This document shows positions 28,536 to 52,400 of a DNA stretch of 64,000 nucleotides, in pieces. The notes under the pieces were generated by a model that saw nothing but the letters and a program-made list of their open reading frames with translations, was not told where the DNA came from and did no database searches. Source of the DNA: Chiua virens. Taxonomy: Eukaryota; Basidiomycota; Agaricomycetes; Boletales; Boletaceae. The stretch spans positions 62,001 through 126,000 of the forward strand of contig JAHNUO010000048.1 in NCBI GenBank assembly GCA_019787685.1, written 5' to 3'. The position numbers and the translations under genes are program-made. Each line of letters opens with the position of its first letter. Within the stretch, counting starts at the first letter, position 1.

Positions 28536-28776
28536 CTATCTCTATGTGTCGCCGTCCATGGTACCGCACTCTGTCCCTGTCCCCGTCGCCTTTTTTGGCT
28601 TTTTTCCGACTCCGGTCCCCACCCCTGCTGTCACTTCTCAACATTCTTCTCTCTGTCCCCATTCCCGTCGCCCTTTTTGGCTGTTTTATCGACTCTGGTC
28701 CCCGCCCCTGCCGTCACTTCTTGACATTCTTCCTTTCCCTGTTCCCCATCTGACTTTAATTTCGACTCTGTCCCCA

Positions 28777-28840
<64 letters not shown>

Positions 28841-29265
28841 CATCCCCACCCCTATCTCTGTCCTCATCCCCATTCTCATCACTGTCCTCATTCAACGTCT
28901 CCATGCCTGTGTTCCTCAAATGTACACTAGTGTACGAAACCCACACCAAGTACTTGCCACTTTTTTTTTCTGGGCTGACGTGTCATCGAAACCATTGTCC
29001 CAGTTCCCATTTCAGCTCTCTATCCCATCATTTACCACATAACCTTTCTACAGATACTCTTCTATAACTTTTTAGAATACAAGTACACCCATTCTTCCCT
29101 TCTTTGCTTCATCCCATAGCCTTCTTGTGACCTATGTTCTACACCTATCCTTTCTCGTTGCCTACCCATCGTGTCCCTTGGAGACTACCTGTCCATCTCA
29201 TCATGTCCAAGTCATAACTACCTGCTATGTGAATCTACTAACCATCACTGTCTCCATCCTCTGCC
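28536..29265 (+). repeat. Left copy of a ~735-bp inverted repeat with hexamer minisatellite
   Basis: Begins CTATCTCTATGTGTCGCCG. It contains two ~100-bp tandem blocks with TTTTTGGC and GACTCYGGTCCCC, then a CTGTCC hexamer array at about 28776-28845, then unique sequence ending CTGTCTCCATCCTCTG. The whole stretch recurs in inverse orientation at 46663-47388. The long Leu/Ser/Pro-rich open frames here come from the hexamers and are not proteins. Confidence 0.9.
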
Positions 29266-30053
29266 ATCATAATCTCTCACTCGTCATGCTTCATACACAC
29301 CCCATACTGCCATCGTTCCTTCGTCACACCTCACTCCATAGTAGTCCTCATCCTGACCGAGTCGCGAATGAGTCATGTTTGAACTTCAACAACCCCTCTT
29401 CTGCCAGATTCAGGTCTGGTGAACACGGGTGAACCTACTGGTCTCAAATAAATCAGGATGGTCCATTATGAGTGCAAAAAATGTTCCCCACATGTATATA
29501 ACACCTATAGACCATGATACAATATATAGAATTGCACCAAAAAATATTTGAGACATGTACCTGCCCCTTCCCCCTCCTCCCCTCTTACCTTGCTCAAAAA
29601 TTATTCTGACTGCCGTTTTCTTACAAAACTTATTTGGGATATCCTAATATATATATAAACAATCTTCAATCATTACTTCACCCAGATTTTGGTTTTCAAA
29701 TTGTAATTACAATTACCCCAGGCTCTGTATGATATGATGATGATGAGATAATATAAGATTATATAATCAAACAATCAGATGAGATGAGAAATGAGATGAT
29801 GAGAAATCTCAGGAAAGAAAGAAATATTTTTGTTGTTATTTATTTTGGTTTTTAAAAAAAGACTAATGACAATGACATATGATGATGAAGAAGCTAGCAT
29901 GGAGAAATGTCAATAAGGTTCAACAATGAAAGACATGAGAGAATGAACATGAACAACAAACAAAGATGAAGATTGAGAGTAGTTCAGTTCAAAAACAAAT
30001 AATATTGTGTTTTTGAGTATATTCATCATTTTTCATGTCTAAAATGGTCTAAT
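29266..30053. other. AT-rich interval inside the inverted-repeat unit
   Basis: No gene recognised. Simple-sequence tracts such as GATGAGATGAGA and GAAATGAGATGATGAG occur at 29735-29815. This is the distal flank of the giant-protein gene and leads into the first palindrome cluster. Confidence 0.4.
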
Positions 30054-30454
30054 TTTCCGCATTTCGACATGTTTGTCGAAATGCGGAAATATTGCCTTAT
30101 ATAGACTGCCCCTAACATGACGTGAATGGATATAAAGTAGTATACTTGACAGAATTCAAGTATAACATGTGTCATGATCACAAAGTAACAAGGATCATAT
30201 ATTTGATTGATACAACTTGGACACACATCATCATATCATAGTATCTTGATGTCCCGCATTTTGACACGTATGTTGAAATGCGGGAAATCAACTTGGATAC
30301 CGTCAACAAACAGATATATAGACTATGATATTTTGGGTTAACTGGCAAGTCATGTGTCCTTTACTGTCATAATACTGAGTCATACTACTCATTCATTTTT
30401 GAATAGCATTAGCATTGGATTTCCCACATTTCAACCAACATGTCGAAATGTGGG
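30054..30454. repeat. Palindrome cluster P6: three copies (30054-30089, 30253-30284, 30423-30454)
   Basis: The first copy has perfect 16-nt arms TTTCCGCATTTCGACA around a TGTT spacer. The second and third are diverged copies with one to a few arm mismatches (CCCGCATTTTGACA, CCCACATTTCAACC). All lie downstream of the giant-protein gene stop at 30554, in its presumed 3' flank. Confidence 0.85.
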
Positions 30455-30553
30455 AAAATAGTAGTTAGTATGATTAAAACACTGTGACATTGACATGACA
30501 TGAATGACATTGTAAATTGATGCATGCTGCTTGAGCATGTAGAAATTAGAAGA

Positions 30554-33500
30554 CTATGAGATACGTCTTCGATTCGTGGATGGCATGGACAGTACAGTAT
30601 GTCCTTGAGGGAGGACGATCAGATCATTATCATCGCTGGACTCTTCTCCTTCTCCAAGACCATCGCTGTCGTCCAGACGACGTTTGCTCGTCGATGCATG
30701 TCTGTCACCATTTCCTTGTCCAAGTGTGTTAGACATTGTGATGGCAGCATTGGAGTCGATGTGACCGCGTGTGCGAACCCACTCGTTCTCAAGTAGAAGC
30801 ATGGCAGTGTGTTCACCTGCCAGCTCAACAACTGCATCATATGCTCCATATTCCTTGTTTGTCATGAGATGGTGCTTGATACGATCCCACATCCTCTTGA
30901 TCTCTTCTGCCGTGGCAGGAGTGGTGTTCTGATTCCATCTCGGTCCCTTGGCTACTCTTTTTCCAAAGGGTTTGGCAAGTCTGAACCGTAGGATGGTGTT
31001 CGTGAGAGTGATTCCTTTGGCAGCTATAAGATGTCACAATTAGCCAGCATCTGGCCCACTGGCAGCCTGAGGTGCGTACTATGTTTGTCAAGGAACATCT
31101 TCACATCGTCCGAGTCGGTTCCAACCTTGTCACAGAGCGGTGAGTGCTTGTCAAGGACTGCAATGATGAACCCTGAAGCCATGGTGACGAATGGTTCCAA
31201 CTGCTTGGCACCCCTTTTGTTCTTTCGCTCCGTCCAAGCCATCATGGCATAAAAGTCGGCCAGCTCCACAGAGGACCAGTGCTTTGAGGTGTTGAGCGTC
31301 GTGGGAGCAAAGACCTTGGGAGTCAGTCCAGTGTAGATGAGAGCGATGAACATGGCAATTGCATGAAGTGGGTTGGATGTAGGATCGTAGTTTGCCTTCA
31401 CCCACTCGTATACAGACTTGGAGAACGGTGTGTTGGACACATGAGAGAGGTTCCATTCTGTCGGCAGAGAACGCTTGTGAAGGACCTTGTGGAAGTCAGA
31501 CAGGCGATGACGGCAGGCTGACCAGGAGGTCCTAGGATCATCATGAGCAATGCGCTGAGATGACATGACAAGCTCTGTCTGTCGAGTCTGTGGAGGGTTG
31601 AGACGAACACGGACCATGCCACCATTGCTGCCGGTCTGAGTGCGCTCACGCTCAGCCTCTCCCAAAGGCAGCCAGGTGGTGTGTACGATCCTTGAAGACG
31701 GTCTTCCAGGACGTCTCTCTTCCTCCGCAGTCCTTGATTCTGACCAAGGTACATGATTGACCTTCATTTTACCGACAACCCGTGTTAACGATGCTCTGAA
31801 CATGTTGTTTCCGCTGGTATCGTCGTCGTCCATGAAGACATTGCCCACCGTGGCCATGACGTATGGTGTCCGTCGTTGTTGTTGACGCCATGTGATCTCT
31901 TTCATCTGATCAAGGGCGGCAGCCATAATATGCTGGAACATGCCATCCTGAATGAAGGGTGGTGCACGACGCTTGTGTGCACCGTCGAGGATGCTCTGGA
32001 CAAAGAAAGAGAGTGGACGACGACCTCCATTTGGGATCTGGAATGAGAAGGGAATGGGGTTGTTGTCATGTCTAGCTGGACTGACGGCAGAGAGCAAATT
32101 GAGGAACTGATCTTCATAAGAGAGTGGATTGTCTGACTTGAGCCATGTTTTGAGTTCAAACTTCCTTGTCCTGGCTGTGTCCTTCTCTTGTCTCGTGCCA
32201 TTGATGAAGATGGGTGCCAACTCTGTCATGACTGCCTTTGAGACCAGGGACTTGACGTCCTCAATATAGATCTTCATGGCGACCTTGAGGACACGGTCCA
32301 TGATGTCGATGGACATGTTCGACATGTCCTGTTTGGGGACATTGGGAGAGTAGTAGGATGTGAGAGACATTGGAGGTGGATTGTCGATCGTGTCCGTGAT
32401 GATGAAGCATGCTTCAGATCTCTACAAATAGAATTTTGTCAGCAACATGTTTTTCTTCAATAAAATAAAATCATCGATTGTATCCTATTCCCGCATTTCG
32501 ACAAGTATGTCGAAATGCGGGAAAATAGAACTTTGTAATCGATCCATGACAGTGCCAGTGCAGACTTGAACTTGGAGATATCTCAGACTCACTTGTGCGT
32601 AAGCTTTTCCATACGTCAACTCCTGCACGCGTTTGGAGCCCATCAATGGTCGATCGTCTTCCGGACAACGTGCCCAAAATTTGGTCTCCACATGAAGGAC
32701 CTTCATAGACAGTTGCATGAAGGGAACGACCTGCTGGTTCAGACATGGGAAGCCATCATGAATGATGCCCAGACACATGTAGTGAGGGAGCATGAGCTTC
32801 TTGCATAGGACCTTTCCAGAACCGGTGTGAGCATAGTTCAGACATCGTTCCAACATGGACATGAATTCCACGTGATAGGGATCGATGGCCTGGCCCAACC
32901 GAATGCCTGCCCTTTTGTGCTGGTTCCACACTAGCTCGATCAACGATGTCAAAGGGTATGTGGTCCAGTTCAACAAGTTCGGTATGACCTGCCATGAAAT
33001 CATAAAGTTTCGTCAGAGATCAGAGACTACTACTAGGCACTGGCAGTCATTCATTATGGTCATGAAAGCGAAGGTGAAGGTGAAGCACTACCAGTGGCGG
33101 TCAGAGACAGAGCTCACCTCAGGCTTGAATGGCTTGACACAAGCCAGGATTGGATCCAGAGTACGTGGATGAATGAACTGCTTGCATAGTTTCGACACGA
33201 CCTTTTCATAGATTGTCCTGAAAAGCAAGGATAAGTCTCGATGAGATGAGATGAGATGAGATGAGATGAGCACTCAGGCTGGCCCATCTCAGACTCAGAC
33301 TCAGAGTCCAAGTCTTGCCAGTCTGATCCCAGTCACTTACCTTCCATTCCTATGTCTTGGACGCAGACGATGGACGTCCAGCACATACGTTTGCTCCACT
33401 CTCAAGGCTTGTGGTTGGTCATCGCCTCTCACCATGCGTGCATATCTCTCGTGTGGAAGACCATTGTCACAGTGTTCCTTCCTTCTCTGGAAGCGTCTCT

Positions 33501-35630
33501 TGCACGACGGCGTGTCTGCCTTGGTTCCGCACAGGACAGAGGTGGCAAGACCCAGCTGTACATAATGAAAGCGAGCTTGTTCACGCACCCGATGAGCGAT
33601 GGCATTGTACATCTGACAATATATCCCATGCAGGACGGGCATGCCATGTCGAACCTGATTCAAGTTCAAGGCATGTTCGTCCTCATCCTCATTCTCCAAG
33701 TCATCCATCTGGTCGTCCCCCTCGTCCTCTTCATCCAAGTTTGCTGGCCTGGGTAGAAGAGGAGGCGTCAGCTTGACATTGATGTCATTCAAGCCTTTGT
33801 CGAAAGAGACTATCGTTCTGTTCGCCTGCACGTTTCCATATAGCTTGGTGAACCCAAGCGGGTAGGCATGGTGGGTGTTCCTTCCATTGTCATCCGGAGG
33901 AAAGAGAGCATCGACTTTCGTGAGATCCATGAGAGCGCCAGATTCGATATAGCCATCTAGAGTAGGAATGCGTCTCCTGACACGATAGCCATCCCTGGTG
34001 TAGACAGGAATTTCATGACCGTCTTGAAGTCGGTTGAGATCGACCAGAGTGCGAGCAGGATCATCAACAGGAAGATCATATAGATCACCATGGAAGCGAT
34101 GGAGGGCTGGACCAGAAAGGTTCTCCCAGTTGACAACCTCTCTGAATCTACCAGTGCGCCAGTGGTCAGTGGACTCAGAAGACGATGAGATTAGAGATCC
34201 TGAGGCTGCAAGACTCACGAGAGATGATGTGCGAGAGAGAAGGCAGCAAGACGCAAGTGAGAGTAGTCTCTGTCTCTGTCCCATGCATTGGACTCCTCCT
34301 GGAGGTGTTCTGGACGATGTGAATGGCAGATAGGTTGATTCTGGCCATACCTGACTGTGAGGGCGACAGGAGAGTTTTGTGTGAGAAAGCCATCGCGCTT
34401 CCAAGACTCTGGGGCATCATGGACCCAAGCGTCCCAATGAGCTCTGATGTGACGGTCAAGATCGCGTGTCTGAGCGAGAGTGAGCTGGAAGCTTCGATGA
34501 TTCTCATCAAGCCTGCCACTATGAGATGTGAAGAGTCAGCATCATCATATTGAACAAGTCGAACTTGAACTTAAAAAATGACAACAGAGAACTTGGGAGA
34601 AGGTGATGAACGAACGATCAATAATGATAATTTTTGAAAGTGGAAACTCGAAAGGAGAAAAGAAAAGAAAAGAATGAGACAGGAAACTGACTAACAGCAG
34701 TTCAGTGGACTGTCTGACGGCGTTGGCACTGATGGGATGAGGATATTTGAGCCTGTAAGAAACATCCTGGAAATGCATCTCAGAGAGAAGGAATGCGAAG
34801 AACATGACAGCCATGTAGGCATGTTCTGGCGTGAGACAGGAGGTTGTGGTGGTAATGGAGAGAGGTGTCATGTCAGGAAGGGCATCTGGAGTATCCAAGA
34901 GGGTGGAGGGGACAAAGGCAAGCCAGATCTCCTCCTGACCACGATCGCCCAGACAGAGCATACGACCTGTGGTGGAGAAAGGGAGGGAGAGGTGAGACTC
35001 CTTCCAAGACTTGAAGAGACGAGAGAAGGTAAGGTTGACATGCCAGGTATGGTCAACGAGGACGCGAGGACTTGGAAGAAGGGCATCGAGACCGACGCGA
35101 GCGCCAAGATACAAGGTGAAATCGATGTAGTGATGTCTGACGGAGGGGACAACGTCATGGGAATTGAGAGTGAGGGTGAACTCATGGTTGACAAGGAGCT
35201 GAGAGCGAGACCTAAGGAGGTTGATGGCTGCCTGGTGTTTTTGGTTGAGGAAGAGGTTCTTGAGAGTGGAGAGGGAGAGGGAGTGAATGGGGGAAGTCCT
35301 GAAGTGAGCTTCATGGTTCCTGTCGATGTTTGGGTCGTTTGTGCGTGTGGAACGCATGATGGCGTCATCTATAAGGGACTGAGGGTAGGGGTGGTCTGCA
35401 TGAAGGTGGTCAGGGACGCGAGCGACATCAAAAGATGTGTCGAGAGGGTGAAGGTCGAGGAGGGGATCTGTGTCAACGTTGTCGTTGTCACGGTCATTGT
35501 CGCCATCACCGTCGTCGTGGTCATTGCCATTACCATTACCATCAGCGTCAGCATCAGCATGATCCAGGTCATTGACTCGGAGAGGGAGTGGCTGAACTTG
35601 AAGTTCAAGTGGTGGTGCATGCACTGGCAT
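30554..35630 (-). CDS. Giant uncharacterised protein (about 1,500 residues) of the palindrome cassette
   Basis: Multi-exon gene. Exon 1 (34696-35630) starts MPVHAPPLELQVQPLPLRVN, has an Asp/Asn/Gly-rich tract, then VGLDALLPSPRVLVDHTWHV and GRMLCLGDRGQEEIWLAFVP. The next exons read HWDAWVHDAPESWKRDGFLT (about 34420) and NWENLSGPALHRFHGDLYDL (34060-34140). Then come TIYEKVVSKLCKQFIHPRTL (about 33150-33210), LERCLNYAHTGSGKVLCKKL (about 32800) and TDTIDNPPPMSLTSYYSPNV through SVELADFYAMMAWTERKNKR (31024-32420). The last exon encodes AEEIKRMWDRIKHHLMTNKE and ends RRRIS at 30554. Frames join through normal GT-AG introns; the intron at about 32423-32597 contains one palindrome. No catalytic motif recognised. 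I recall similar very large proteins in other Agaricomycetes with no assigned function. It is the last of three genes read in the same direction. Confidence 0.65.
32488..32523. repeat. Palindrome P5 (single copy, core 32490-32521)
   Basis: Arm CCCGCATTTCGACA, spacer AGTA, then the reverse-complement arm, extended by TT/AA outside. It lies inside the intron between the exon ending KAYAQ (about 32598) and the exon starting RSEACFII (about 32422) of the giant-protein gene. Confidence 0.9.
33239..33270. repeat. GATGA pentamer microsatellite
   Basis: About six units of GATGA within a predicted intron of the giant-protein gene, just upstream of the exon encoding TIYEKVVSK. Confidence 0.8.
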
Positions 35631-36675
35631 GAGAGCGTCAGGCTGGGGATGTAGGCGGTTGATGTTAATGTTGATGTCGCTATGAAGACAGACTTGGAGG
35701 TGATGGGGATGGAGAGATTGTGGATATATGGAAGGTGGTACTGGGAAGGGGATGAAAATTTTGGAGGAGGGGAATAAAAAATTTTGAGTGGGATGGGCAA
35801 AGGGAAGGATGAAAGGCGGACAGGAACAGGGACAACAATTTACAAAGGAAGGTTAGGCTAGGGTCGAGGGTGAAGGACGGGATCGGGATGGAGAGGAGGT
35901 CGGGCGTTGAAATTGAAATAAATCGAAATCGAGATCGAGGGTCAATAGCATAGGTGTACTGAGGACGTACGAAACATCATGATCTATTATATTTTGGGCG
36001 GTAAAGAAGGATGAAACTCGAAGGGAAGGACTCACTGGCACAGGCAGAGCCTGAAGTAAGTGTGTGGGTGCACGTGCATGGGTTTGTTTCTGAGAAGAGA
36101 AGGTGGAAGGGACGTATTGAACTCACGGCAACGAAGGAACTTACTAGTGGATGGTGCCGGACAAGGTAGAGGAGACGATGCAAAGGGATAAGATTGATGG
36201 ATCGATTTGTGACGTTACAGGACAACGGACGGAATGGGTTGAAAAGATAATAATTGGAACTTGGAACTTGGAACTTGTGAAAAACGGAAAGAGTGGGACA
36301 AAAACACACGTTATGCATGAAGGACTCGGAAGCTGAGGACTTGGGACAGGGGGAGGAGGGTGAAGCTTTCACAAAATGAATGTGATCGATTCGATTGCTT
36401 GGAAAAGACGACAATGCGATATGGACAGGAGGACATGGACATTATCATCATCGCGTGATATACAGAACGGGAGTGGGAACATGATAGATCAGGTAGAAGT
36501 ACATGATACAACACGAAATTCTGGAGGTGGCGGCAGAAATTGGGATCGGGATGGAACAAAAAGAGAGGAATGGCATGGAATGATGACGGAAGTGGGGAGT
36601 GGCACATACATACAAACTCTCGCTTTTGCTTTTGCTTTTGCTTTTGCTTTTCTCTCTCTCCCCCTCATGGCATAG
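35631..36675. other. Spacer between the ParB-like gene and the giant-protein gene
   Basis: No convincing exon. It should hold the promoter of the giant-protein gene (- strand). No palindrome copy is found in this spacer, unlike the other flanks of the cassette. A CTTTTG hexamer run at about 36625-36652 lies next to the 3' end of the ParB-like gene. Confidence 0.4.
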
Positions 36676-39600
36676 AATAGCCCTCCTCGACACGATCAAT
36701 GTTGATATCATGCATGTCGATGTCAGGTTGCTGGGGGTGCTGCTGGCGAGAACGAGGGATGGGAGCAATAGGAGCAGGGGTGGAGGTAGAGGGAGCTGTG
36801 CGAGGAGGGTCTTGATCTTGATGGATAGTACGGGGACGTTTCTTCTGTGGAGGACGACGGGGAGCTGCAAAGGACGAGAAGAGAAGAAGATAAGCAAGGA
36901 GAGGAGAGAAGAGAAGAGAAAAGTTGAAGGAGAGGATCGGACGCACGGGATGTGGGCATAGAGTCGATGGACTTGGGCTTGTTGCGCTTGTTGGAGGACA
37001 TTGTGGGACTCGGATCGTGAGAGTCATCAAGCTTTTCGTTGCCCATGCCGTTGCTCTCAGACTGGAAAAGAGCTTGAATACCGTCGTCGTCGGTATGCAT
37101 ATTGACGATGTCCGCGGTGATGCCTGCCAGCAACATATGTGAATATTTGATTCGGTCAATGATGAATGAATAATGGTGGACAGACGAGGAGAAAAGAGTT
37201 GAGAAAAAAGAAAAAAGAAAGAACGTACTCTGCACCGAACGTTCTACGAGCGGAATACCTGAAATGGAATGTTACGTTAGAGTCATGAGGACAGGAGGAT
37301 AAGACGGGTAGGGAACAGGGAGGATTGAATGCGTGGAAACGAACGATACGTATCATATATTGTATCATACGGCGAATGAAGGAATGTTGTAAGTGTGTTT
37401 TGAAAAATGGCAAAAGGGTATTAAAAAAACCCGCAAATCGACAACATTGTCAAAATGCGGGGAAACAAACCATACGATATGAAGGAAGGGAACAAGGAGG
37501 GGTTGTAAAGGGGTCAAAAAACCCGCAAATCGACAATGTTGTCAAAATGCGGGAAATAGAAGGGTGTGACAGAAGGATACGTATTGACAACATGTGAATA
37601 GAATGGCGTTTTCCCGCAAATCGACAACGTGGTCGAAATGCGGGAATCTAGACATGTCTAAAACAGGTCACGTACCTTCGTCGTTGTCAATGGGCTGTGT
37701 CCTCACGAGACCACCACTGGCTGTGTCGATATCTTTCCAGTACATGGACTCGTCGTCGTCATCGTTGGTGTCGTTGTTGTCGTCAAGGGCAGACGGATGG
37801 ATGGGCACTGGCATGTGACCACTGGCAGGATTGTCGAGAGGGACCATGATGGCTGCTGGATTCGCTTGAGTAAAAGGAGGTACGAGAACGGTTGTAGAGA
37901 GAGGATCTTCGTGCATCGTATCTAGCATATGATGAGACGAGATTAGATCAGATGAATGAGACATGATGCTGGTGCATGGTAGAAGGTGGACGTGCGTACC
38001 GATGCCAGTGGTGTCGTCCGCGTTGTCGTTGCCGCCAGTCGGAAGAGAGACCCCCAACGCTTCAATGAGTTCCTCGATGCGTTCGCGTGTTTTCGACGGG
38101 GGGAACAAGAATGTCGTCCATTTGTGCTTCAAATCGAGTTTGTCGTCGGCGTCCTGTTCATTGTCAATCACGTCTTCGTCGTCTTCGTCATCTTCGTCTT
38201 GGCGCTGCTTGAATTCGAATTCGAACCGATCTTGGTTTGGCATATGGGAAACGTTGACGTCGAGGGACATGTTGAATGATTTCTCGCGATGTTCGTAGGC
38301 ACTTTCAGTGAGTATCTGGTGACGACGACTCGGTCAATCAGAACAGAACAGAAACAGAGGACTCGTGTGGGACGAACCTTGACGATCTCACGCAAAGGAG
38401 CATCGAGCTCTGCACGGACGGCACGAGACTTGGACGGCGTGTCCTTTCTGGACTCCGATCCAAGAGGCCAGGCGGGGGGGCACGACTGAAGCGCATTGAT
38501 GACCTTCTTTATGGAGTCGTAGTCCTTCTTCCTGGTCGCGATCCGGATGTTGCGCCTGTTCTCCTCGACGCTGTCGAAGACGACGTCCTTGAGCTTCATG
38601 GTGTCGACGTCGATGCCGTCGGGCCAGTGGATGATGTAGCGCAGGTCATCGTCCTCGTCATCGTCCACGATGCCACGTGACTTGGAGGGGTCGGTGTGCA
38701 TAGAGAGTGCGATCTCCAGAGCTGAACGCATGAATGCAGACGCACTGTTTGCCTCATGAAGGAGTCGGCGCCGGTAGTCATTGATGATGCAGAACTCGAC
38801 GATGGCGGAGCAGATGGTCTCTCTGCGAGAGCGGGCCTCGCTGTTTCCAGAGGGTGATCCCCATGCGGCAGTGTGGTAGTTGAGGATGGTCAGGGTACGG
38901 TACATGGGACTGGCGGACGGCGGTTGGACGTGTATCTTGCGCGACCAGCGTTTGCCCCATTCGACGGCACGTTGATCTGGGATGCCATCCCTGAAGACCT
39001 GCTTGATTGCGGCCTTGAGTGCATCGTCGACAACGCCAATCTCCTTGTTGATCTCGACGAGTTCGGGTTGGGCTGGCGCGTGCGTGGGAACGGACGAGTT
39101 TCGAAAAGGAAAGCGTACTCACGTGCGTCGCTGCTTTCAAGTTGTTGCGCCGTCGTGCTCTTGCTTTGCGCGCCGCCCTTACGTCTCGTGGTGATCTTTG
39201 TTTCCCCCTCGAGGAGCATGAATTCTTTGACATGTTTTGCAGAGTCTGGTCTCAAGGGCATGTCGATCTTGGACAGTTCGTCCTCCATGCGCAGCAACGC
39301 AGGGAAGTTTCGGACGAGAGACCATACGAGCTATCGATGAAAGGTAAATGAATGGAATGATTCGTACGCTATCGGTTGTGATGTGATGCGATGTGATGCT
39401 CACCGTGTTCATCGACAGCAGGGAATGGTTGCGCCTCAAGTCTGGATGAGACGTGATCGCACGTATCATGTCGGCGCTCGCAGAGCCGATCTTCCATCGC
39501 CCACCGATGACCCTTTGGTTGTATACGAGGGGGCTGAACCAAGAGGATATCTATGGATTGGTCGTGAGTGATCAGTAGTTATCCTATTGTTCTCGTCGAC

Positions 39601-41638
39601 AGAAGAAGGCCTGAAACCCCGCATTTCGACAACATTGTCGAAATGCGGGAAAACGTGCACACGAACGCATGACGTGTCACTGTGCAGTCGACGATGGAGA
39701 CGCTTGAAACCCCGCATTTCGACAACGTTGTCGAAATGCGGGAAAATGGATGTTAGAGCCCACCATCTGCATCCAAGGATCTCAGACACGCACGTCCGTT
39801 TCCCAGTCGAAACGTGCATATAATCCCCCATCATCATTCATGACAATTGTTTGATCGTTTGCTCACCTCTACCATCGCAGATGGCACCCGCTTCAACTGT
39901 CTCGCCAACGCATGCCACACCCCGACGGACATGAATGGTAGTCCGTGCGGCGTGAGCGCCGTATATTCGATGTTCAGAACCAGACGTGCTTTCGACGCGC
40001 ATGTCTCCCAGGCCGTGGTCACGTCCTTGTCCGCGTCAGTGAGTCGTCCTTTGGTGCTCTTGTACGTTGTCTCCATCGTCTCGATCACGTCCATCACATA
40101 GTCTCGATACGCGTTCATCCACACCTCGGATCGCGTCCCAAAATGACGCCAGACGTTCTCCTTGTCCAGCGTCTTCCGGTACACCTTGTCAATCGCCCCT
40201 CGCAACTCGTCGCTGATCACGCTCGCCATCGGTGTCTCCGATCTGAGATTTCTCAATTGTACGTTCAGGTACTTGTCCGCGTCTTCTTTTTCTTGATCTG
40301 TGATCGTTGGGTCTTCCAGCAGCGCCATCGTCTTCCTTACCTTCTCTCCATCCCAGCTGGCACACGTGTTGAAACACAGACGGAGACGATCCTCAAGAGA
40401 TACAACCAGCGTCGCTAGCATCTGTCGAGGAACACGTTTGTTCTCTCTTCACAATAGACCGTATCATGTCACTCACCCCTCCATACTCCGATATCAGATC
40501 ACTCGTCAGTCTCGTGATCTTGAATATGTCCGAGTGCGTGTAGTGCGTGTTCGACGTCCCTGCGATCTTCTCTAAAAGCCGCCACACGTATTCTTGCTGC
40601 AACAGCATCCGGATCTTGTACCCAGCCTTTTGAGAACGAAGTCCGGACTCGATCGTCACGTCCGTCCACTGTTTATCTTGCGATTGCATCAATTTGAACA
40701 GTTGAATCACACCCTCCTCTGCGGTTTCCGCATAGCTGTACAGTCGCTGGTTTGTCGACAAGTGCAACCCAATCGAGTCCGTCATTTTCCCTGTCGTGAG
40801 TCCGCGTTTGCATTCAGATTCGTTCATGTCACCTCACGTCAGTCCCGTATCACGCACCCATGTCATATATAGCAACTATCCACATCCCTCCCGTCTTGAT
40901 TTCCGCCCGGATCGTGTCCACATCGCCGCGCGCCTCTTGCAGTCTCGCATCCTCTTGTGCTATCTCGCCTTTGTCTGCAAGAACTTGAAGATCCTTCCGG
41001 AGACTTTCCCGCGTCTTCAGTGCGTCCTTCTTTGCTTCCACCCATCGACTCAAAACGTGTTGTCGATGTCTGCCGCCAGCCGCTCTGATCGACGGCCCAA
41101 ACACAGTGCGTATTGGCCTCTTGTCCTCGTGGATCTCCGTCTTCACATCGTCACCTTTCAATTTCAGCTCTGGAAGTCCCTCGCCGACTCGACCCATCTC
41201 TGTTCGTGACAACATTTGTGTCGTCAACGGCGTTTCGATCGAGTCACGATCGATGATCAGGTTGATCGCGTTGTCGTATTCGAAACGTCGCAGGCCATTG
41301 CACACGAACGAGTCCATAAGACTCTTCGATTCGTCGTCGTTCAACCGACGATCGTTGTAAAACCCAAACGCCAGATTGCGTTCGATGAGGTCGGTGCGTG
41401 CGTACCCAATTAAAAATTCCCTCGCCTTCTCCTCCAGGTCATAATACTCATCCATGTACTTATCAATCCCCATCGTTCTACGGGTGCCAGCCTGAGTCCC
41501 TGCATGTTGACTCCCTCCTTGAGCACCAGTGCCAGCATCTTTGGCGGTACGATCGGCCATGGGAACGTCTTCCTCGATCCCTTCGTCTCCCTTCTTGCCC
41601 TTTCGGTTCGTTTTCGACTGGGCTTGTCGTGGTGGCAT
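36676..41638 (-). CDS. ParB/sulfiredoxin-like domain protein of the palindrome cassette (about 1,200 residues)
   Basis: Start ATG at 41636-41638 (MPPRQAQSKTNRKGKKGDEG). About 11 exons end in NIDRVEEGYSMP at 36676. Residues 85-290 resemble the ParB N-terminal fold: NDRRLNDDESKSLMDSF (95-111), AINLIID (124-130), then the signature-like GGRHRQHVLSRW (188-199), MWIVAIYDMGKMTD (252-265) and STNQRLYSYAETAEEG (272-287). These mirror ParB's G-x-R-R and E-N-x-Q-R boxes. The exon joined at 40864/40796 continues that block in frame. The rest is helical and uncharacterised (WMNAYRDYVMDVIETMETTY, VIGGRWKIGSASADMIRAIT, YHTAAWGSPSGNSEARSRRE, KWTTFLFPPSKTRERIEELI) with an acidic, low-complexity C-terminus. 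Palindrome clusters P3 and P4 lie within its introns (about 39552-39872 and 37259-37677) and P2 lies just upstream of its start. I see no clear helix-turn-helix. Nucleotide binding or DNA binding is inference from fold resemblance. Confidence 0.6.
37430..37644. repeat. Palindrome cluster P4: three copies (37430-37461, 37522-37553, 37613-37644)
   Basis: All three share a variant left arm CCCGCAAATCGACAA; right arms are TTGTCAAAATGCGGG in the first two and GGTCGAAATGCGGG in the third. Starts are 92 and 91 bp apart. The intervening sequence differs between copies. The cluster lies inside a predicted intron of the ParB-like gene. Confidence 0.9.
39618..39742. repeat. Palindrome cluster P3: two copies (39618-39649, 39711-39742)
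   Basis: The second copy is a perfect 32-nt palindrome, CCCGCATTTCGACAAC followed by its exact reverse complement. The first differs only in the central pair. Starts are 93 bp apart. Both are preceded by GAAAC and followed by GAAAA. They lie in the intron between the exon ending VPSAMVE and the exon starting ISSWFSPLV. Confidence 0.95.
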
Positions 41639-41865
41639 GTAGAGTGTGTTTGTATCTAGAGCGTCGTTTGTTTTTGTGTGTGTGTCCGTTTAGAGCGTCT
41701 GAGCTGTATCTCAAATTGGTCGGCACATAATATTATATATACATGCATTTACAATTCATGTCACGTGCCCATGAGTTATCATTCCCTTATATAAGATTCA
41801 ATGTGCATGATCAACGTTCATATTGTCTACTGATGTGACCGACATGACACACATACCCCTCATTT

Positions 41866-41990
41866 CCCGCATTTCAACAACATTGTTGAAATGCGGGAAA
41901 TGACAGGTATGAATCAGTATGGATGTCATAAGATCTGCTTGTTAAAATGTCTTGATTTCCCGCATTTCGACATCACTGTTCGAATGCGGC
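41866..41990. repeat. Palindrome cluster P2: two copies (41866-41897, 41959-41990)
   Basis: The first copy has a paired compensating change: CAACAA in the left arm and TTGTTG in the right, so complementarity is kept. The second is degraded in its right arm. Starts are 93 bp apart. They lie between the ParB-like gene start (41638) and the RING gene end (about 42235). Confidence 0.9.
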
Positions 41991-42234
41991 AAATCACACG
42001 TACTGATCCTCTCATTCTGCACAATCTGTACACAGTTCACACTACTTACACATACGTTCTCTAGCCTACTCCATCATCATGACTTCAAGCTCTTCAATAT
42101 TCAACTGAGTCCGACTCGCTACACTTCACATCTCTTATCACATCAACACGGTCCTTTACAACTCTTCCCTGCCAAAGGTACGTCTATACATCCTTCGTGT
42201 TTTGATTTTACACAGATCGTCACACACACCCTCA

Positions 42235-43860
42235 GCTTGATGGTCCTGCAATACCACCGTCCCCTTCTGATACCTCGGTGTCTGTCAATTCAACCACGTC
42301 CTCCATCCAAGTCTCTCTCGCCCTCACCCTTGCCCTTGCCATCTCGCCATCTCTCTCTGCACCCTCTGCAGTCATCCGTTCAGGAGACGCATCTCGTCGT
42401 CGCATCACAACCCGTGGTCGTGGTCGCGCTCGTGTGCTACTCTCTACATGTCGACCATCCATTCGGTTTGTCGTCTGTACCCCTCCTTCCTCCGGCGAGT
42501 TGATCTGCTGCGTCTGTGTCTCTTCTTCTACAAGTGCCTCAGGTAGCCTGTACGTCCCATCTCTTCTCTTCTTCATCACAAACATCTTCCCACTTTCCAC
42601 CAGATCCCTGCTCGTCTTCGTTCTCCAATACTGTTCAAATCGATCCACCATCTCTCCACTCGTCCTTGCACACATTCTCCCTTAAGTACCTCACTCACTT
42701 CCATCACCACACATAGTATTCACTCACCTTGACATTTTCTGGTACCATTCCAGCATACTCCCTTTTTCTCTCCATCGGTCTCGCATCTCCCCATCCTCGT
42801 CCCATTCTCCTGCTTCTCCTAGCCATTCATCCACTCCACCCATCATCCTCACTCCTTCCCTCATCACCCACTCAATCATGCTTCCCATCCGGTTGTCTCG
42901 TCGGAATGGTAGGCTCCCTTCCATCTTCCTCTCTTGCAATTCAGGTATCCGCCCCATCTTGAATCGGCATATCGGACACTGGAACACTCGTTTCGTCCGA
43001 TCCTCGTACGTATTCCCCTTCTCTTTCTTGTACCACGCTAGCCATGTCTTCACCATACACCCGCCGCAAAATACATGCAGGCATGCTGCACGCACAGGCG
43101 TGCTCCTACATCGTCCAAGTTCAATTCATGTCAGTCCTCTTCTCTCTTTTCCTTCAAAGTCGTTACTCACAGTATCTCCATGCATCTGCAATCCAGTCCC
43201 AACATGTACGTCAGCTCTCAGTTCTCCTCTTCGCTCTCCTTCACTCACATTTCACACATCAGATGTCCCCTCGTCAATCCATCGATCATCGTCGCTCCCC
43301 CCCACTCTTTCATCATCTCTCTTGTCGTCCCCATCTCCATCTTCTCGTACGTTCCTTTCCTCCACTCACCGTCCTCAGGCTTCTCCTTTCCAGCCATCAT
43401 CTCCAACTCCAGCGCCTTCATCTTCCACACCTCTTTCTCCCTTCTATCTTCTTCCCTCTTCTCTTCCAACTCCTGTATCATCCCCATCAATCGTGCGTTC
43501 TCTCTCTCCATCCTATATCTCTCGTTCTCATCCGCACTCGCTTTCATCTTTCCCTTCTCTCCACCCTTCCTTTCATTACTCACTTTTATACCTCCCTGTC
43601 CATCCTTCATCTCAACGTCACCCACACCACATTCAACCTCATCATCATGGTCCTTCATCTCTCCCCCCATCTCCACCTGTTCCATCAACACATCCTCTGC
43701 CACAGCCGACCGTTCATCCACGCTCACTTTCCTTTCCTTTTAGTAACACAGTTGTCTCGTATATATATGTACAGATGTACTTACATGCTGTCTCATCCTC
43801 CAAATCAAAGAACAATCCAATTGTTTTTTCTTGTCGTTTGATGCTCCTGTAGAGTGACAT
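42235..43860 (-). CDS. RING-finger protein of the palindrome cassette
   Basis: Start ATG at 43858-43860 (MSLYRSIKRQEKTIGLFFDL). After an intron the acidic exon SVDERSAVAEDVLMEQVEMG leads into a coiled coil (NERYRMERENARLMGMIQEL). Splicing through two short introns gives MCEICMEILSTPVRAACLHV, FCGGCMVKTWLAWYKKEKGN and RVFQCPICRFKMGRIPE. That is a canonical C3HC4 RING: C-x2-C, x11, C-x-H, x2, C-x2-C, spacer, C-x2-C. The linker exon reads GSMIEWVMREGVRMMGGVDE, and the last exon (42235-42675) ends VVELTDTEVSEGDGGIAGPS. RING fingers of this type are E3 ubiquitin ligases, so the likely role is ubiquitylation of an unknown target. First gene of the three-gene cassette on the - strand. The final splice is uncertain. 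Confidence 0.75.
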
Positions 43861-44038
43861 TTGGGATTTGTTTGTCTGTTGTTGTTGTGTATACAATGTG
43901 GTGGTGAGAGTGAAAAAGAGGATATGCGCAACCTTCTCATTCTCTCCATTTTATATATGTCTCACATACATACAACTACATCATTATTACGTACATTATA
44001 TTTCATATCTTCATACCTTCTTGTAGATCATTCAATTT

Positions 44039-44251
44039 CCCGCATTTCGACAACCTTGTCGAAATGCGGGAAATTCTCAGCTATCTCATGTAGTATCAAC
44101 TTATAATTTGAATATATATTATCTCTAGCATTGTTTGGGTACACATACAGTACTTACTAGTATACTAGCATCATATATATTAATATTCACTTTATATTAT
44201 ACATCATAGTATCTTGTGTCCCGCATTTCAACAACATGGTCGAAATGCGGG
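44039..44251. repeat. Palindrome cluster P1: two copies (44039-44070, 44220-44251)
   Basis: Arm CCCGCATTTCGACAA with centre CC in the first; the second has CAACAA on the left and GGTCGAAATGCGGG on the right. Starts are 181 bp apart, close to twice the ~92-bp spacing of the other clusters. They lie upstream of the RING gene start in an AT-rich region. Confidence 0.9.
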
Positions 44252-44759
44252 AATATATATCATCTCAACAGTCAGTGCAGTAGCTTACACTCAATCAATA
44301 TATTGTCCGCATCATCAATATTTCATATTTGCGGTTGAATTTATATATGATTTGCTACTGGAACCCCAAGTCTAACCTAACAACATTAGGAAAATATGCT
44401 AAGATCGGGATGATCGATCTGTTCTCTCACGCTGTCAGATCTCATGGGAATTCTCTCACGGAGCGGCGTTCTCACGTCACGCAAGGTTTTGGTTTAATCT
44501 TAGGGCATTTAGGGTTTGTTTCTCACGCAACGGGGAACTCACGTCACATAGAGTTTCATCAATCTCCGATAAGGTTCGCTGTCAATAGACGGGAATCAAC
44601 TGTCACCGTTATCAAGATAGCGGGTATTAAAAACGCAGTCAGGGGCACAGGAGATAGAGCGGATCTACTGGAATATTTTTAGGTTTTGAGGTCCGTCCCG
44701 TTGTGTCTTATCATCGAATCAGCTTATCCCGCAAGTTGCCGAAATCACGGGTCTAAAGG
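44252..44759. other. Unrecognised interval upstream of the hammerhead candidate
   Basis: No gene recognised; one open frame at 44329-44682 (+) has no conserved motif. The word CTCACG recurs several times between 44425 and 44545 (TCTCACGCTG, CTCACGGAGC, CTCACGTCACG), giving weak internal repetition. It may be part of the element that carries the ribozyme. Confidence 0.35.
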
Positions 44760-44767
44760 TATATAAA
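44760..44767 (+). promoter_or_regulatory. TATA box upstream of the hammerhead candidate
   Basis: TATATAAA at 44760-44767 ends 36 nt before the 5' end of the candidate ribozyme (44804). A transcript starting 25-35 nt downstream of such a box would begin almost exactly at the ribozyme. Promoter activity is inferred from sequence and spacing only. Confidence 0.4.
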
Positions 44768-44803
44768 CCCCCGTGAGTCTATATGTTCAAATATACTATC
44801 AAG

Positions 44804-44872
44804 AATAGAGCCTGATGAGTACCTAACGAAACAGGGAGGTAAAGGGTGGTTCCCTTAACCTGTTGCTCTATT
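44804..44872 (+). ncRNA. Candidate type I hammerhead self-cleaving ribozyme
   Basis: Open-ended stem I is 8 perfect base pairs (AATAGAGC 44804-44811 with GCTCTATT 44865-44872). The conserved core CTGATGA is at 44812-44818. Stem II is short (GT/AC, 44819-44820 with 44826-44827, five-nt loop). The conserved GAA is at 44828-44830. Stem III is 5 pairs (ACAGG 44831-44835 with CCTGT 44859-44863), capped by a second helix AAGGG/CCCTT. T44864 then sits as the unpaired nucleotide before the predicted cleavage site, between 44864 and 44865. All invariant core positions of the hammerhead (RF00163-type) are present. The weak points are the 2-bp stem II and U rather than C at the cleavage site. Confidence 0.75.
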
Positions 44873-44925
44873 TCACTCGTCCTAGACATACTGGCCTAGT
44901 TGGTTTGGATTAAACTAACCTAACC

Positions 44926-45093
44926 ATGTTGAATATCATGCATGGGGAAGATTATTAGGGAACCTGCGCGCCCTGCGCGCATGGCGCGCAGCATGTTGAA
45001 TATCATGCATGGGGAAGATTATTAGGGAACCTGCGCGCCCTGCGCGCATGGCGCGCAGCATGTTGAATATCATGCATGGGGAAGATTATTAGG
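44926..45093. repeat. 67-bp tandem repeat, about 2.5 copies
   Basis: Units start at 44926, 44993 and 45060 (ATGTTGAATATCATGCATGG) and appear identical where compared. Each full unit holds a GC-only block with GCGCGCCCTGCGCGC and GGCGCGC that can fold on itself. The third copy ends after ATTATTAGGG. It begins 54 nt downstream of the hammerhead candidate. Confidence 0.95.
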
Positions 45094-46662
45094 GTTTCGC
45101 TGCAAGCATGATCCTCCACCAGCCCTGGACATAGAGTCGTCAGGGTGTGTTACACACGGATGTCATCGCCCAGAGAGGCACTCCGGCTGCCATGTAGTAC
45201 TCCCTGAGCGGTGACTAGAATAACTCACAAGCGACCCTAGGATAGCCCAGACAGCTGGGACCAACGCTGCGGGATGAGTCAAAGGACAATGATCGAGGAG
45301 GATGCGAGTACGGGATGCTGACAACCCTCCCGGCGAGAAGGTATGCCGAAAAGGGTCAGATTCTACAGAAAAAAAATCCGGTCAAGAGGTGCATCGAAAA
45401 TCAAATCACATACTATGGCATATTACTGCGTTAGAGACTTGGAGTACATGCCCCATGACGTGGTAGCACCACAATAATGCCATGATGAAAGGCAAATGGG
45501 CTGTCGGATTCGATCTAGAAGCAGACCTGGGCCTGAAGAAAAGTGGTCGCAAGTGGACTGACGTGTGGATGGTAGTTAGCGCTGGCTCAGATAAATGACA
45601 TGCTTGGTAGAACCGAGTGAGAACTGCAAGTTCAAGAGATGGTGACATGACGATGACCAGGAGGTCACATCAGCAACTTGTCGGCCTGACTGTCATGTCT
45701 ACAGGACTGTGGATAGACGTGTCAAAGTCCTGGATGTACAACCGCATCACCTGTTCTCAGTCCATACGTGAGCGGAAAAAAAAAACAAACAAACAAAAAA
45801 TCAAGTCCAGTCACAATCACACCTCGATTACAACGATTATGATGTCTCATTATACATACCTCGAATTCTGACGAAGCTAGGGTTTTTGCTTTCGAAGACG
45901 ACAGACTTTGAAGGTGTGATCGAGCGAGCAAAAGAGTTGACGACAACAAACATGTCGATCAACCTCGTCATATTCAGGAAGGAGAGGTCTAGTTGAGCTG
46001 CAAGTGCAAACGATGAGAACGAAGATCCAGAGCGACATAGCAAAGAAGAAAACATATTCTTCCGATGATACCGGTACAGCGAGGGTGATGCCATATCACC
46101 AGAGAATGAGATTTCTGAGCGCTGCCGGGTCTACACGAATGTGACAACTGAAGAACGCCGCCGATGAACCTCTCAGTCCTGACGGCTTTGAATGTCGAGG
46201 ATTCAGTCTTGTGACGATCGGGACACCACCTGAAAGCGAGCGACTCATAACACACAGCCTAACTGTCATGCCTGCCAGTGGATGGGCTGTGGACCAACCG
46301 TCTGCACTGTGCAAGTCGGGTGGATTGCCTACAGACACCCACAGCTTACTGCGGTTTCTCCGGTGGACAAAAGTCTCAGGACGGCGAGGCAACGATCTGA
46401 TTTTGCAGCCATTCGTATAAATCATGGCAGTCCTGTCGATTTCGTGGTCGATGAGGATGTCGTGTACAGGATATAAATGTAGATATGACATGGTAGCAGT
46501 GATGGGACCGATGGAGCAAAGCCTTAAATCATGGACGGCGTAAGGCTCGTTGTGATCAGGGTTCACGAAGGACTTGGGTCTCTTATACTAGGGATCGTGC
46601 TGCCATCATTCGGAAAGAAAGGTTTCGTTGCAGCGTCCTGGAGCTCTCGTGGCAGACAGAGG
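45094..46662. other. Unrecognised interval inside the inverted-repeat unit
   Basis: No gene identified. On the - strand, frames at 45837-46094 (containing LDLSFLNMTRLIDMFVVVNS) and 46096-46566 look weakly protein-like but do not join cleanly and match no family I know. An A-rich tract lies at 45776-45800. Possibly a degraded gene. Confidence 0.35.
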
Positions 46663-47388
46663 ATGGAGACAGTGATGGTTAGTAGATTCACATAGCAGGT
46701 AGTTATGACTCGGACATGATGAGATGGACAGGTAGTCTCCAAGGGACAGGACGGGTAGGCAACGAGAAAGGATAGGTGTAGAACATAGGTCACAAGAAGG
46801 CTATGGGATGAAGGGAAGAAGGGAAGAATGGGTGTACTTGTATTCTAAAAAGTTATAGAAGAGTATCTGTAGAAAGGTTATGCAGTGAATGATGGGATCC
46901 TGGAGAGCTGAAATGGGAACTGGGACGATGGTTTCGATGAGACGTCAGCCCAGAAAAAAAAAGTGGCAAGTACTTGGTGTGGGTTTCGTACGCTAGTGTA
47001 CGTTTGAGGAACACAGGCATGGAGACGTTGAATGGGGATGAGGACAGAGATAGGGGTGGGGACGGGGACGGGGACGGGGACGGGGACGGGGACGGGGACG
47101 GGGATGGGAACGGGGACAGGGACAGGGACGGGGACGGGGACGGGGACGGGGACCGAGTCGAAATTAAAGTCAGACGGGGAACAGGGAAAGGAAGAAGGTC
47201 AAGAAGTGACGGCAGGGGCGGGGACCGGAGTCGATAAAAAAGCCAAAAAGGGCGACGGGGACGGGGACAGAGAGACGAACGTCGAGAAGTGACGGCAGGG
47301 GCGGGGACCGGAGTCGAAAAAAAAGCCAAAAAAGGCGACGGGGACGGGGACGGAGCGCGGTACCGGGGACGGCGACACATAGAGATAG
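46663..47388 (-). repeat. Right copy of the ~735-bp inverted repeat with hexamer minisatellite
   Basis: Reverse complement of 28536-29265 at high identity in the unique part (two visible differences over a stretch of about 100 bp compared by eye). The hexamer array here is GGGACG-type (about 47058-47155), where the left copy has mainly CTGTCC, so the arrays have diverged. Outer edge at 47388, where CTATCTCTATGTGTCGCCG begins on the - strand. Confidence 0.9.
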
Positions 47389-49427: not shown

Positions 49428-52400
49428 CTATGACGGTCTTCGATTGCTACGCGACTGCGTCTGGTTCAACGCCCCCGATGGTCTTCTCTCTTGCGGTCTT
49501 TCTGCCTTGGGCTTGCGAGATCGCCCCTTCCCACCTTTGTCCTTGTTCTGGTGGTGCGTCCTCACGCGCAAGGTCGCCTGCTCCTGCTCCAAGGTCTCAA
49601 GCCGCACACGCTCCTCCTCTGCGGCCCACCACCGCAGGAAATCAACTTCTTGCTGGCGCGCTCGCTCCTCCTCCTGAATCTCACGCAACGACCGTTTGTC
49701 CCTGGTCGTGGACGTTGCCTCTTGCAACGCTTGCATCCGTTGTATCTCTGCAAACGGAAGCCTGGTCGAAGTCGACACTGTCGGCGCGGTGATAGGTTGT
49801 ACGGGTGGCAGTGTCCACGCACCACCCAACCTAGATTATAAACGACCATTACAACCCGAAAACGCCAATCTGCGTAGAAAAAGGCACTTACGATGGTTTC
49901 CGTGGGCTCCCAGTGCGGGTGCTGGTGGACGCAGATGTGTTCGAGGTCTGGCGAACGGGCGTGATGACAGGGCCCATGACCGGCCCCGGTGACCTTGAGC
50001 CCGGGGGTGGAGTTCGAACAGCGCCACTTGTGCGACTTGCCATCAGCGCCGGGATCGACTCTGGTTTCTGAGTCACAGAAGGGTTTGACGGGACGCGACG
50101 TGGTATTGGTGGATCGTCGGATCGCCAAGACTGTCCAGATAAACGACCTGGCCCTGGCGACACACCCGCGCCTTGCGCAGGCCTTGCAGGTACAGTACTC
50201 ACGTTTGTGTAAGCATCGCTGCCAACAGCCACCTCTGTACCCGAACCTAGGGTGCGTGTGTGTGTGTGCCTCCGACCATTCTCCGCCTCTGCCATAATCG
50301 CCTTGAGGTCCGTGCTATACCGACGTAAGAATAAAGTAGAGATATCAAAAAGTAATACTGACCGAGGCATCACCCCATTCTTCTTCCATCCCGGTTTCGC
50401 AGCTCCAGCCATTGGCATCTGCGCGAGCGTCTCCTCACTTGCACTCGTCTGCAAAGAACTCGGTTTAAGGGGAAAGCCCACATCCGCATCGTCCATGGCA
50501 AAGATTTCGTCTCCTAGCGGTGGCTGTGGTGTCGCAGATGGACGAAGCACAGGACTTGGGGTTGGCGAATATAGCCACAATTGGCGGCCAACCGTCTTCC
50601 TCGCTGAACCAGGTGCTGACGTTCGTGGTGAGTCTTTCGCAGTAAAGACTTTCTGACTGGATATAATGGGAACCGGGATATCTTGCAGCGCAAGCCAATC
50701 CTTGTGCTTCTCCAATGCTGCGTGTCCCAGCTTATCGGATCGAGACACAGGTGAGTGGGTTGCCTGCTGAGCACGCGCGTGTTCCGAGAGCTTGCGTACA
50801 ACTCGAAGATCGAGGTCGTCGAGGATCCTCGACTCGAGTAACATCTCCATATTGGCAACCATATAACCTTGGACGCGATCCGCCAGCTCGACCGCGTTGA
50901 AGTGTATGGCGTCCGTGAGTAGGCAGCATGCATTGTACGTGTTCAAATACTGGAGGATAATTCGAGAACACAACAAAACCAGCCGGTCTAGAAGCAATTC
51001 GTTCTGGTTGAGAACATATTTAATGATATTGCAGACAAGTGATGGAGGAGACCTCACCGCAGCAGATATTACGAGGAACATAAACTCGAGCAATTCATCG
51101 ACATTGCTCACGAACTCTGGAAATAGATTGACATGGCGTGTTATGAAACTCAGAGGGACTTACCAAGCATTTCGAACATAGCTTCATCGCCGAAACAGAC
51201 GAACCGCAGTACAAACTGCATGACTTGCCACTTGTGGTGTCTTAAGTCTACATCGACCACGCCCGCGTCGTCTCTCCGTTCAACGGTCCAGTCCTGATCC
51301 GAAAAAAAGGCAGAAAAGAAGTCGGATCGCGCACGAAGTACAGTGGAATGTGTATAAACAGTCTTGTCCGCCAAATGGAGTGCGACATTGGGCGCAATGG
51401 GATCTTGACAGACGTTCCGTCGCGACAAACCAGAAAGCTGCGCCTGATCGAATAGCCACTGGAAATCACTCCCAGCAGACAACTTTGCGTCTCGTTTCCC
51501 GACAGATTGCAGTGCTGATGTGAGGTGCGGAAGTTGGAGCAAGTCTGCCAGAATAGTAAGGTCCGCCTTGACTTGTGTTGCGGACACGCCGAGACGTGAA
51601 AACTGGGTCTCGAAGAAGGATTCGATACGACGATCCCAAATGGCCAGGACTTCATCTGCGTATACATAATGCAGGAGGATCAGCAAGGAAAGTGGACTTG
51701 TTCCCGTAAACTGGAGAACCGGGGAACCTGACGACGCCGACCCTGAAACGTTCGATGACATGAACGTTACGCTGACCTTGGAAGATTTGTCACGGGCGGC
51801 TCCGTGGCCACCAAGCACCTCACGAAGTGGCGCGCAACGCGCTGCAAGAATGACCCGGTGGGCGGGTATCTCGAATTCATCACCAACGCGGACGGTGAGG
51901 TCCACACCATGCTTGCTGCCCCTCACGGACGACTCCGCTTGATTGGCCTGAGCACACAGTAGACTTGTCAGCTTTGCGAGTCCGTTGATGTCGTCGAGAA
52001 TGGACGAGTCTTCAAGATCGTCATCAATATTGACGATCACGTCCAACGGCACGTTCATATCCTGCGGCACCGTAGCTTCAGAGAGGAATGGTGCGATCGC
52101 GGCCATGTCAGCAGAAAAATGTCTTCCAGAAACATTGACTGGGGTCGGTTTGTAATCGACTCGAAGAGCGCCAAACGAACCCGTGCCGTTTGCACACACA
52201 GCAACGGCTCGTTGTACATGGGCAACACGTTGAAACTTGAATGCCTTCGCCCCATTGCCCGTCGTGCCAGCCTTGAGGTTTCGAGAGCGAACAAATACAT
52301 GGCCTGACTGTGTGCACACAATCAGAGCCCCGTTTCCACCAATGTCGACATCCTAATACGGTAAAAAATTAGATCTTAGACACGACAGCGAAGTGGTAGA

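Follow-up and report, generated by a model that had tools for sequence, protein, structure and literature searches.

Introduction

How transposons evade silencing without freeing all other transposons is an open question. In the literature searched, anti-silencing that is private to a sequence has been described only for the VANDAL transposons of Arabidopsis. VANC proteins bind short motifs of these transposons and remove methylation (PMC5735166, PMC10398659). In VANDAL21, introns of two genes (VANC21 and VANB21) and the region upstream of a third (VANA21) contain the motifs; the targets of VANC6 have other motifs (PMC5735166, PMC10398659). The present analysis concerns a 64-kb stretch of the genome of the bolete Chiua virens (contig JAHNUO010000048.1, here C48, positions 62001-126000; termed the window), in which 13 copies of a 32-nt palindrome, designated type I, are found in a repeated three-gene element of about 15 kb. 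On balance, these palindromes are probably lineage-specific binding sites of a dimeric protein encoded by the element itself, and their most likely role would be in anti-silencing.

Distribution and placement of the type I palindrome

The element extends from position 29434 to 44405 of the window, as delimited by copies with unrelated flanks past both ends. It carries gene A (30554..35630), gene B (36665..41638) and gene C, which encodes a RING-finger protein (42635..43860), all on the minus strand and represented by hand-made splice models without RNA evidence. A scan of the window with the 32-nt type I consensus at up to 11 mismatches returned exactly the 13 copies that a preliminary description had reported, at the same starts, and zero further sites, as had also been claimed. 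The reversed consensus gave no site at 11 mismatches, and a looser scan (13 mismatches, 8 of 16 positions paired) yielded a single weak extra place at 51644. All 13 sites lie inside the element, in agreement with their earlier assignment to the three-gene block. They are scattered over 14 kb across several gaps, which excludes a CRISPR array, with its direct repeats and regular spacers in one array, as the preliminary description had likewise concluded.

Downstream of gene A, type I palindromes are located at 30056..30087, 30253..30284 and 30423..30454, and a further one lies in intron 5 of gene A (32422-32592, 171 bp) at 32490..32521. Intron 8 of gene B (37259-37675, 417 bp) contains three sites with an asymmetric arm (37430..37461, 37522..37553 and 37613..37644), and intron 3 of the same gene (39551-39866, 316 bp) contains two, at 39618..39649 and 39711..39742. 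Between gene B and the RING gene, there is one site at 41866..41897 and a degenerate one at 41959..41990. The remaining two are found upstream of the RING gene at 44039..44070 and, close to the right end of the element, at 44220..44251. Coding sequence makes up 60% of the element, yet none of the 13 sites touches it by these gene models, for which the probability by chance is about 1e-6; the earlier statement that the sites are non-coding thus stands. Moreover, the two site-bearing introns of gene B are the longest of its ten introns, the others measuring 50-105 bp.

A degenerate form of the type I pattern, with up to 3 mismatches allowed, was searched for in the genome assembly (48.3 Mb, 136 contigs), and the reversed pattern served as control. 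The pattern was found at 48 distinct places and the control at none. Near-identical copies of the element on five contigs account for 41 of these places (C48 13, C1 9, C47 7, C11 6, C13 6). Five more belong to diverged relatives of the element in which gene B lies no more than about 2 kb away (C14 998160 and 1000475, C29 113809 and 113969, C34 16327), so that 46 of the 48 places lie in element copies or relatives. The other two (C14 196046 and 197895) are 1.85 kb apart at a locus where no gene is demonstrable, and this pair may be a relic. Many copies unlinked to the three genes, which the preliminary description had named as the result that would speak against it, were sought genome-wide and not found. 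Its expectation that sites always occur together with homologues of the genes holds for the 46 linked places and fails at a decayed gene-B relative on C9, where 8 kb contain no type I site. Repeated short palindromes outside coding sequence are also known from REP/BIME and MITE-type sequences. Such dispersed palindromes are ruled out here by the 46 places inside the carrier family: bar the two C14 places, the palindromes of the element are not dispersed outside it.

The type I sites have been retained over considerable divergence. In the C14 relative, whose gene-B protein is 49% identical, intron 8 contains three sites and intron 3 another two. Two of the three intron-8 sites have the left arm GCAAAT, like the three sites of the window, and the third has GCTAAT. 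This match of the arms favours descent over re-insertion. The flanking intron sequences of the window element and the C14 relative gave no blastn match at E 1e-5. As a separate observation, a place on C11 (L030:4583), about 280 bp past a gene A relic, differs from the type I consensus by 8 mismatches and is perhaps a decayed site.

A sister lineage with a different palindrome

Loci with the same gene order as the window element are present on C47 (32-41 kb), C78 and C28. Their gene B protein is 35% identical to that of the window element and their RING protein 27.6% (E 8e-7); gene A is found on C78 and C28. The gene searches of the genome give lower bounds; 38 of 99 candidates were scored in one search and 34 of 62 in another. 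Type I sites are absent from these sister loci (L027-L029) at up to 9 mismatches. Instead, the loci carry a 33-nt inverted repeat, CRCCGAKAT-N15-ATMTCGGYG, designated type II. At up to 1 mismatch, all 36 type II places in the genome lie in the three sister loci (C28 14, C47 8, C78 14), and a control pattern with the half-sites facing outward was found at no place at this threshold. The preliminary description was right about the three-gene block as carrier of the sites, and had overlooked that the block belongs to a transposable-element family with diverged lineages and a different palindrome.

The two site types occupy matching compartments. The C47 sister locus (L027) contains nine type II sites, none of them in an exon with tblastn support: two in a late gene B intron, three in intron 3 of gene B, two between gene B and the RING gene and two beyond the RING gene. 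For gene A, the arrangement in the window predicts a site in intron 5 of the sister gene (C78:24454-24654 by exon bounds), and the genome scan gives two, at 24504 and 24592, with two matching sites on C28 (418128 and 418216). The last exon of gene A and the start of the RING gene of the sister lineage were not found by alignment, and the type II sites that follow gene A (at 22204 and 22419 on C78) or precede the RING gene are assigned by position only. All six compartments are thus used in both lineages with different sequences, two of the six by position only. As an observation apart, exon 1 of the sister gene B contains, in coding sequence, two near-perfect palindromes of another sequence (L027:4602-4720).

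This placement bears on two simpler explanations. According to the first, the palindromes are operator sites for ordinary autoregulation, at which a repressor or activator of the element controls how strongly the three genes are expressed, and escape from silencing plays no part. Dimer-type symmetry would suit such operators, as would the pair of sites that each lineage has between gene B and the RING gene and the pair before the RING gene, the latter being positional assignments in the sister lineage. However, 9 of the 13 window sites lie within introns or downstream of gene A, where simple operators are not usually found, and autoregulation as the sole role is considered unlikely. According to the second, the sites are neutral remnants, left by a tiny mobile palindrome or by local duplication and retained through copying of the element. 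Local duplication is indeed indicated in intron 3 of gene B, where C78 and C28 have four type II sites with similar spacers and C47 has three, and template switching (see below) can keep the arms alike. Against this stand the restriction of 46 of 48 type I places to elements of one family, the persistence of sites at 49% gene-B identity next to intron sequence without a blastn match, and the use of matching compartments by two site types; neutral retention is therefore highly improbable.

Further lineages with genes A and B are present on C21, C41/C42, C11 (1.903-1.913 Mb), C58 and C66. Those on C21 comprise five near-identical and apparently recent copies of a third lineage (177-186, 291-298, 319-326, 473-481 and 493-501 kb), at which the genome-wide scans list neither type I nor type II sites. 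The comparison of site types covers two lineages, those with type I and type II.

Symmetry, pairing and inverted centres

In 12 of the 13 type I sites, at least 12 of 16 positions are paired, and the site at 39711-39742 is perfectly self-complementary, as had been stated before. Windows with this degree of pairing number 12 in the element and two in the 49 kb of the window outside it, and each of 20 order-1 Markov nulls of the element contained 0-2. The preliminary description had taken compensating arm changes as a sign that pairing or symmetry is selected. Such changes exist, as 6 of 25 arm deviations form three mirrored pairs (two of the three at CpG), but the other 19 deviations are uncompensated. 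Further evidence against selection for pairing comes from the three sites of gene B intron 8, whose non-complementary arm (GCAAATC) is kept, and from their three C14 counterparts, which likewise have such an arm. In the nine type II sites of L027, the CCGA and AT positions of the half-sites are paired in 9/9 and the centre positions in 1-3/9, a contrast that is partly circular because the sites were collected by the same pattern; the central 15 nt are mostly unpaired. The conserved feature thus appears to be the sequence rather than the pairing, and inverted half-sites about 30 bp across have the form of a binding site for a dimer.

Alternatively, the palindromes might act as hairpins of RNA or single-stranded DNA, for example when long introns are spliced or the element is replicated. 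As single strands, two well-paired type I sites reach folding energies of -15.7 and -16.7 kcal/mol (z about -7.7), sites are located in the two longest introns of gene B, and the inverted centres described below indicate that complementary arms meet during replication. In contrast, the site at 37430 folds at merely -7.6 kcal/mol, folding is no better than that of shuffles for two of the four type II sites tested, and there is no Rfam match. Together with the non-complementary intron-8 arms kept by both the window element and its C14 relative, the uncompensated arm deviations and the rarely paired type II centres, this makes a hairpin function distinctly unlikely.

Near-identical copies of the element differ conspicuously at the centres of the palindromes. 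Between the C48 and C11 copies, there are 15 mismatches in 5,527 aligned bases, four of which fall within the 36 central bases of six sites. These four represent two exact inversions, at 39618 (inverted in C11 and C13) and at 44039 (inverted in C11, C13 and C1). The C47 copy has two more, at 30056 and 32490, so that the centres of 4 of the 13 type I sites are exactly inverted between copies. When replication switches template between two short inverted repeats, the spacer is inverted and the arms become more alike, and such switching is reported for arms of more than 9 bp with short spacers (PMC8604942, PMC8794818). The inversions are a known mark of such switching during replication, when complementary arms meet. 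They do not demonstrate a function, and mutation of this kind could generate some of the arm symmetry. For the spacing of type I sites, five of six spacer pairs are within the shuffled range and one is slightly above it (10.5 versus a maximum of 9.0).

Copies of the element and their decay

The copy on C47 matches the window element at 98% from the left end (29434), the copies on C11 and C13 match its right part at 99.6-99.7% up to 44405/44406, and the copy on C1 matches the right 8.9 kb at 96.6%. At window position 38879/38880, within the element, the C11 and C13 contigs begin and the C47 contig ends, which is an assembly break inside a repeat and not a chromosome end. The four right ends (C48, C11, C13 and C1) imply at least four near-identical copies, and diverged relatives exist on C29, C34 and C14. 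The block is therefore a mobile or at least duplicated element.

Some copies are intact and others, at the opposite extreme, dead. A comparison of gene A in C48 and C47 gives 25 synonymous and 9 non-synonymous codon changes without stops, which suggests that the gene is under constraint. Gene B of the C1 copy has 49 synonymous and 70 non-synonymous changes, one new stop and a deletion of 4 bases. In the same copy, 164 of 228 transitions relative to C48 are CpG losses. This is the trace expected from decay of methylated cytosines and points to methylation of the element.

The left end of the element (29435..29733, plus strand) contains one unit of a 149-bp repeat that forms tandem arrays elsewhere in the genome, with a common right boundary at at least 20 other loci. 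At C4 and C28 (L021, L022), these arrays come after an apparent acidic reading frame, and may represent one end of a different transposon. Short rearranged derivatives at C53:216-2111, C30:343938-346555 and C14:5191-7809 join the right end of the element, a piece of gene B (94%) and left-end tandem arrays, and are possible non-autonomous forms. Outside the element, a pair of inverted repeats with 91% identity flanks it at 28536-29263 and 46657-47388, and the left-flank repeat is found again on several contigs. The right flank (44404-44925) starts exactly at the edge of another repeat, whose copies on C71, C12, C30, C29, C65, C39 and C36 begin at the same base, and is followed by a 67-bp tandem repeat (44925-45094). 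The ends of C1 and C11 (L018, L019) carry telomere repeats that are mostly TTAGG and occasionally TTAGGG.

Proteins encoded by the element

Gene A has seven exons and encodes a protein of about 1449 aa in the splice model; the database model has 1358 aa with a later start. The product is a 100% match to the Chiua virens protein JVU11DRAFT_12486. The precomputed Pfam assignment in the protein database is PF26608, with DUF8190 in a UniRef name; PF26608 did not appear in our own hmmscan listing for gene A. Homologues are found in Boletus, Suillus, Pisolithus, Butyriboletus and Fomitopsis. Gene B has 11 exons and encodes about 1222 aa, with homologues in Chiua, Boletus edulis and Suillus spraguei among the matches. 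For one A protein and one B protein of B. edulis, the listed contig has the same length, 174,189 bases, and the two are thus probably encoded on one shared contig. The product of gene C, for which the 3' end of the model is uncertain, matches RING models of Pfam with a best E of 5e-5, below the curated cut-off.

The N-terminal motif GGRHR of gene B is conserved, lies in a poorly modelled region of the predicted structure, and resembles ParB/sulfiredoxin-type motifs. The label "ParB-like" of the preliminary description goes back to this one motif, with no Pfam or PDB-sequence match in its favour. Among eight gene B and ten gene A relatives, no known transposase domain (KDZ, Plavaka, EnSpm, hAT etc.) was detected with Pfam at E up to 10, in a library that also missed PF26608 for gene A, and a diverged transposase could escape detection. 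As for Helitrons, the A and B relatives have no Pfam Rep or helicase domain, the left end is not CTRR, and the right end begins with A|TC on the minus strand. Since no description was found in the literature searched, the combination of a DUF8190 protein, the gene B protein and a RING protein apparently constitutes an undescribed transposon family in Boletales.

The motif of gene B has a bearing on a further explanation, according to which the palindromes are sites of recombination, transposition or partition, either holding ends or sister copies together like parS or being cut and inverted by an enzyme of the element. The likeness of GGRHR to ParB-type motifs and the inversion of 4 of 13 centres between copies would fit such a role. 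Nevertheless, the sites are distributed throughout the non-coding gaps and not at the ends, and Pfam gives no ParB or recombinase match. Inversions of 2-4 nt are, moreover, explained by template switching (PMC8604942, PMC8794818). This explanation is thus improbable, even more so than that of hairpins.

Proposed function of the palindromes

Binding sites for a dimeric protein, one of the options raised in the preliminary description, are the option favoured by the evidence. The proposal is that the two-fold symmetric sites inside the element would be read by a dimeric DNA-binding protein of the same element. Because private motifs in introns and gaps, their change between lineages, local duplication and CpG decay recall the anatomy of VANDAL transposons, the product of gene B or gene A is proposed as the binder, with a slight preference for gene B. 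Bound in cis over the non-coding compartments, the protein would distinguish its own copies from everything else. Its likeliest purpose would be to counter host silencing by CpG methylation, as VANC does for VANDAL transposons; autoregulation or the assembly of a transposition complex might be served instead. This reading is favoured because of the genome-wide linkage of the sites to the element, their non-coding placement, the exchange of the site type in the sister lineage, the retention of sites in the C14 relative, the half-site form of type II, the CpG loss in the C1 copy and the constraint on gene A.

Several observations weigh against this proposal. At the decayed gene-B relative on C9, parts of which are 56-77% identical to the C14 protein, 8 kb contain no type I site even at up to 9 mismatches, and the genome-wide scan lists no type I place near a relative on C50. 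Pfam recognises no DNA-binding domain in the products of A or B, and the gene B model has no PDB match at E up to 0.001. When 2 mismatches are allowed for type II, 10 of the 14 places listed at this level are outside the sister elements (50 of 51 places listed overall); the controls gave 1 (reversed), 4 (half-sites outward) and 6 places (its reversal), which leaves a modest unexplained excess. The constancy of the type II half-sites is partly circular, as noted above. Most type I sites pair well and two of the four tested type II sites out-fold shuffles, for which reason a hairpin role keeps some probability. Finally, the VANC motif has 9 bases (PMC5735166), and type I, with 28 specified bases, is much longer.

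Comparison with known systems

Like the element, bacterial ParB-parS systems have palindromic sites close to a gene whose product contains a GGRHR motif. They differ in that the element is eukaryotic, has intronic sites and gives no match to a ParB profile. Transposons of Agaricomycetes with TET/JBP genes are thought to escape methylation by a protein of their own (PMC12730594). Neither TET/JBP nor a known transposase domain is listed for the A or B relatives by Pfam.

The VANDAL/VANC system differs from the element in its host, Arabidopsis rather than a fungus, and the matches of A and B include no plant-named protein; a VANC profile was not directly compared. Its 9-base motif is arrayed in one orientation (PMC5735166), in contrast to the 32-33-bp inverted repeats of the element. 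Binding and demethylation have been reported for VANC, whereas here they are proposed from sequence. The likenesses concern the organization of the motifs. In both systems, the motif is confined to its own family (here 46 of 48 type I places and, at up to 1 mismatch, 36 of 36 type II places), is found outside coding sequence, introns included (13 of 13 type I sites and, in L027, 9 of 9 type II sites) and differs between related lineages. Gain and loss by tandem repetition, as in VANDAL, may apply to type II, of which the spacers in intron 3 are similar; type I spacers are mostly within the shuffled range. The host of the element would be a methylating one, as that of VANDAL is. The presence of two sister lineages in one fungal genome offers a ready test of cross-recognition, in which, if the proposal is true, each protein should bind its own palindrome and leave the other unbound. 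It is possible, though less likely than not, that these three-gene fungal transposons with a DUF8190 gene A carry in each lineage a private address of inverted repeats of about 30 bp that is read by a protein, address and reader changing together, as an independently evolved counterpart of the VANC anti-silencing of plants.

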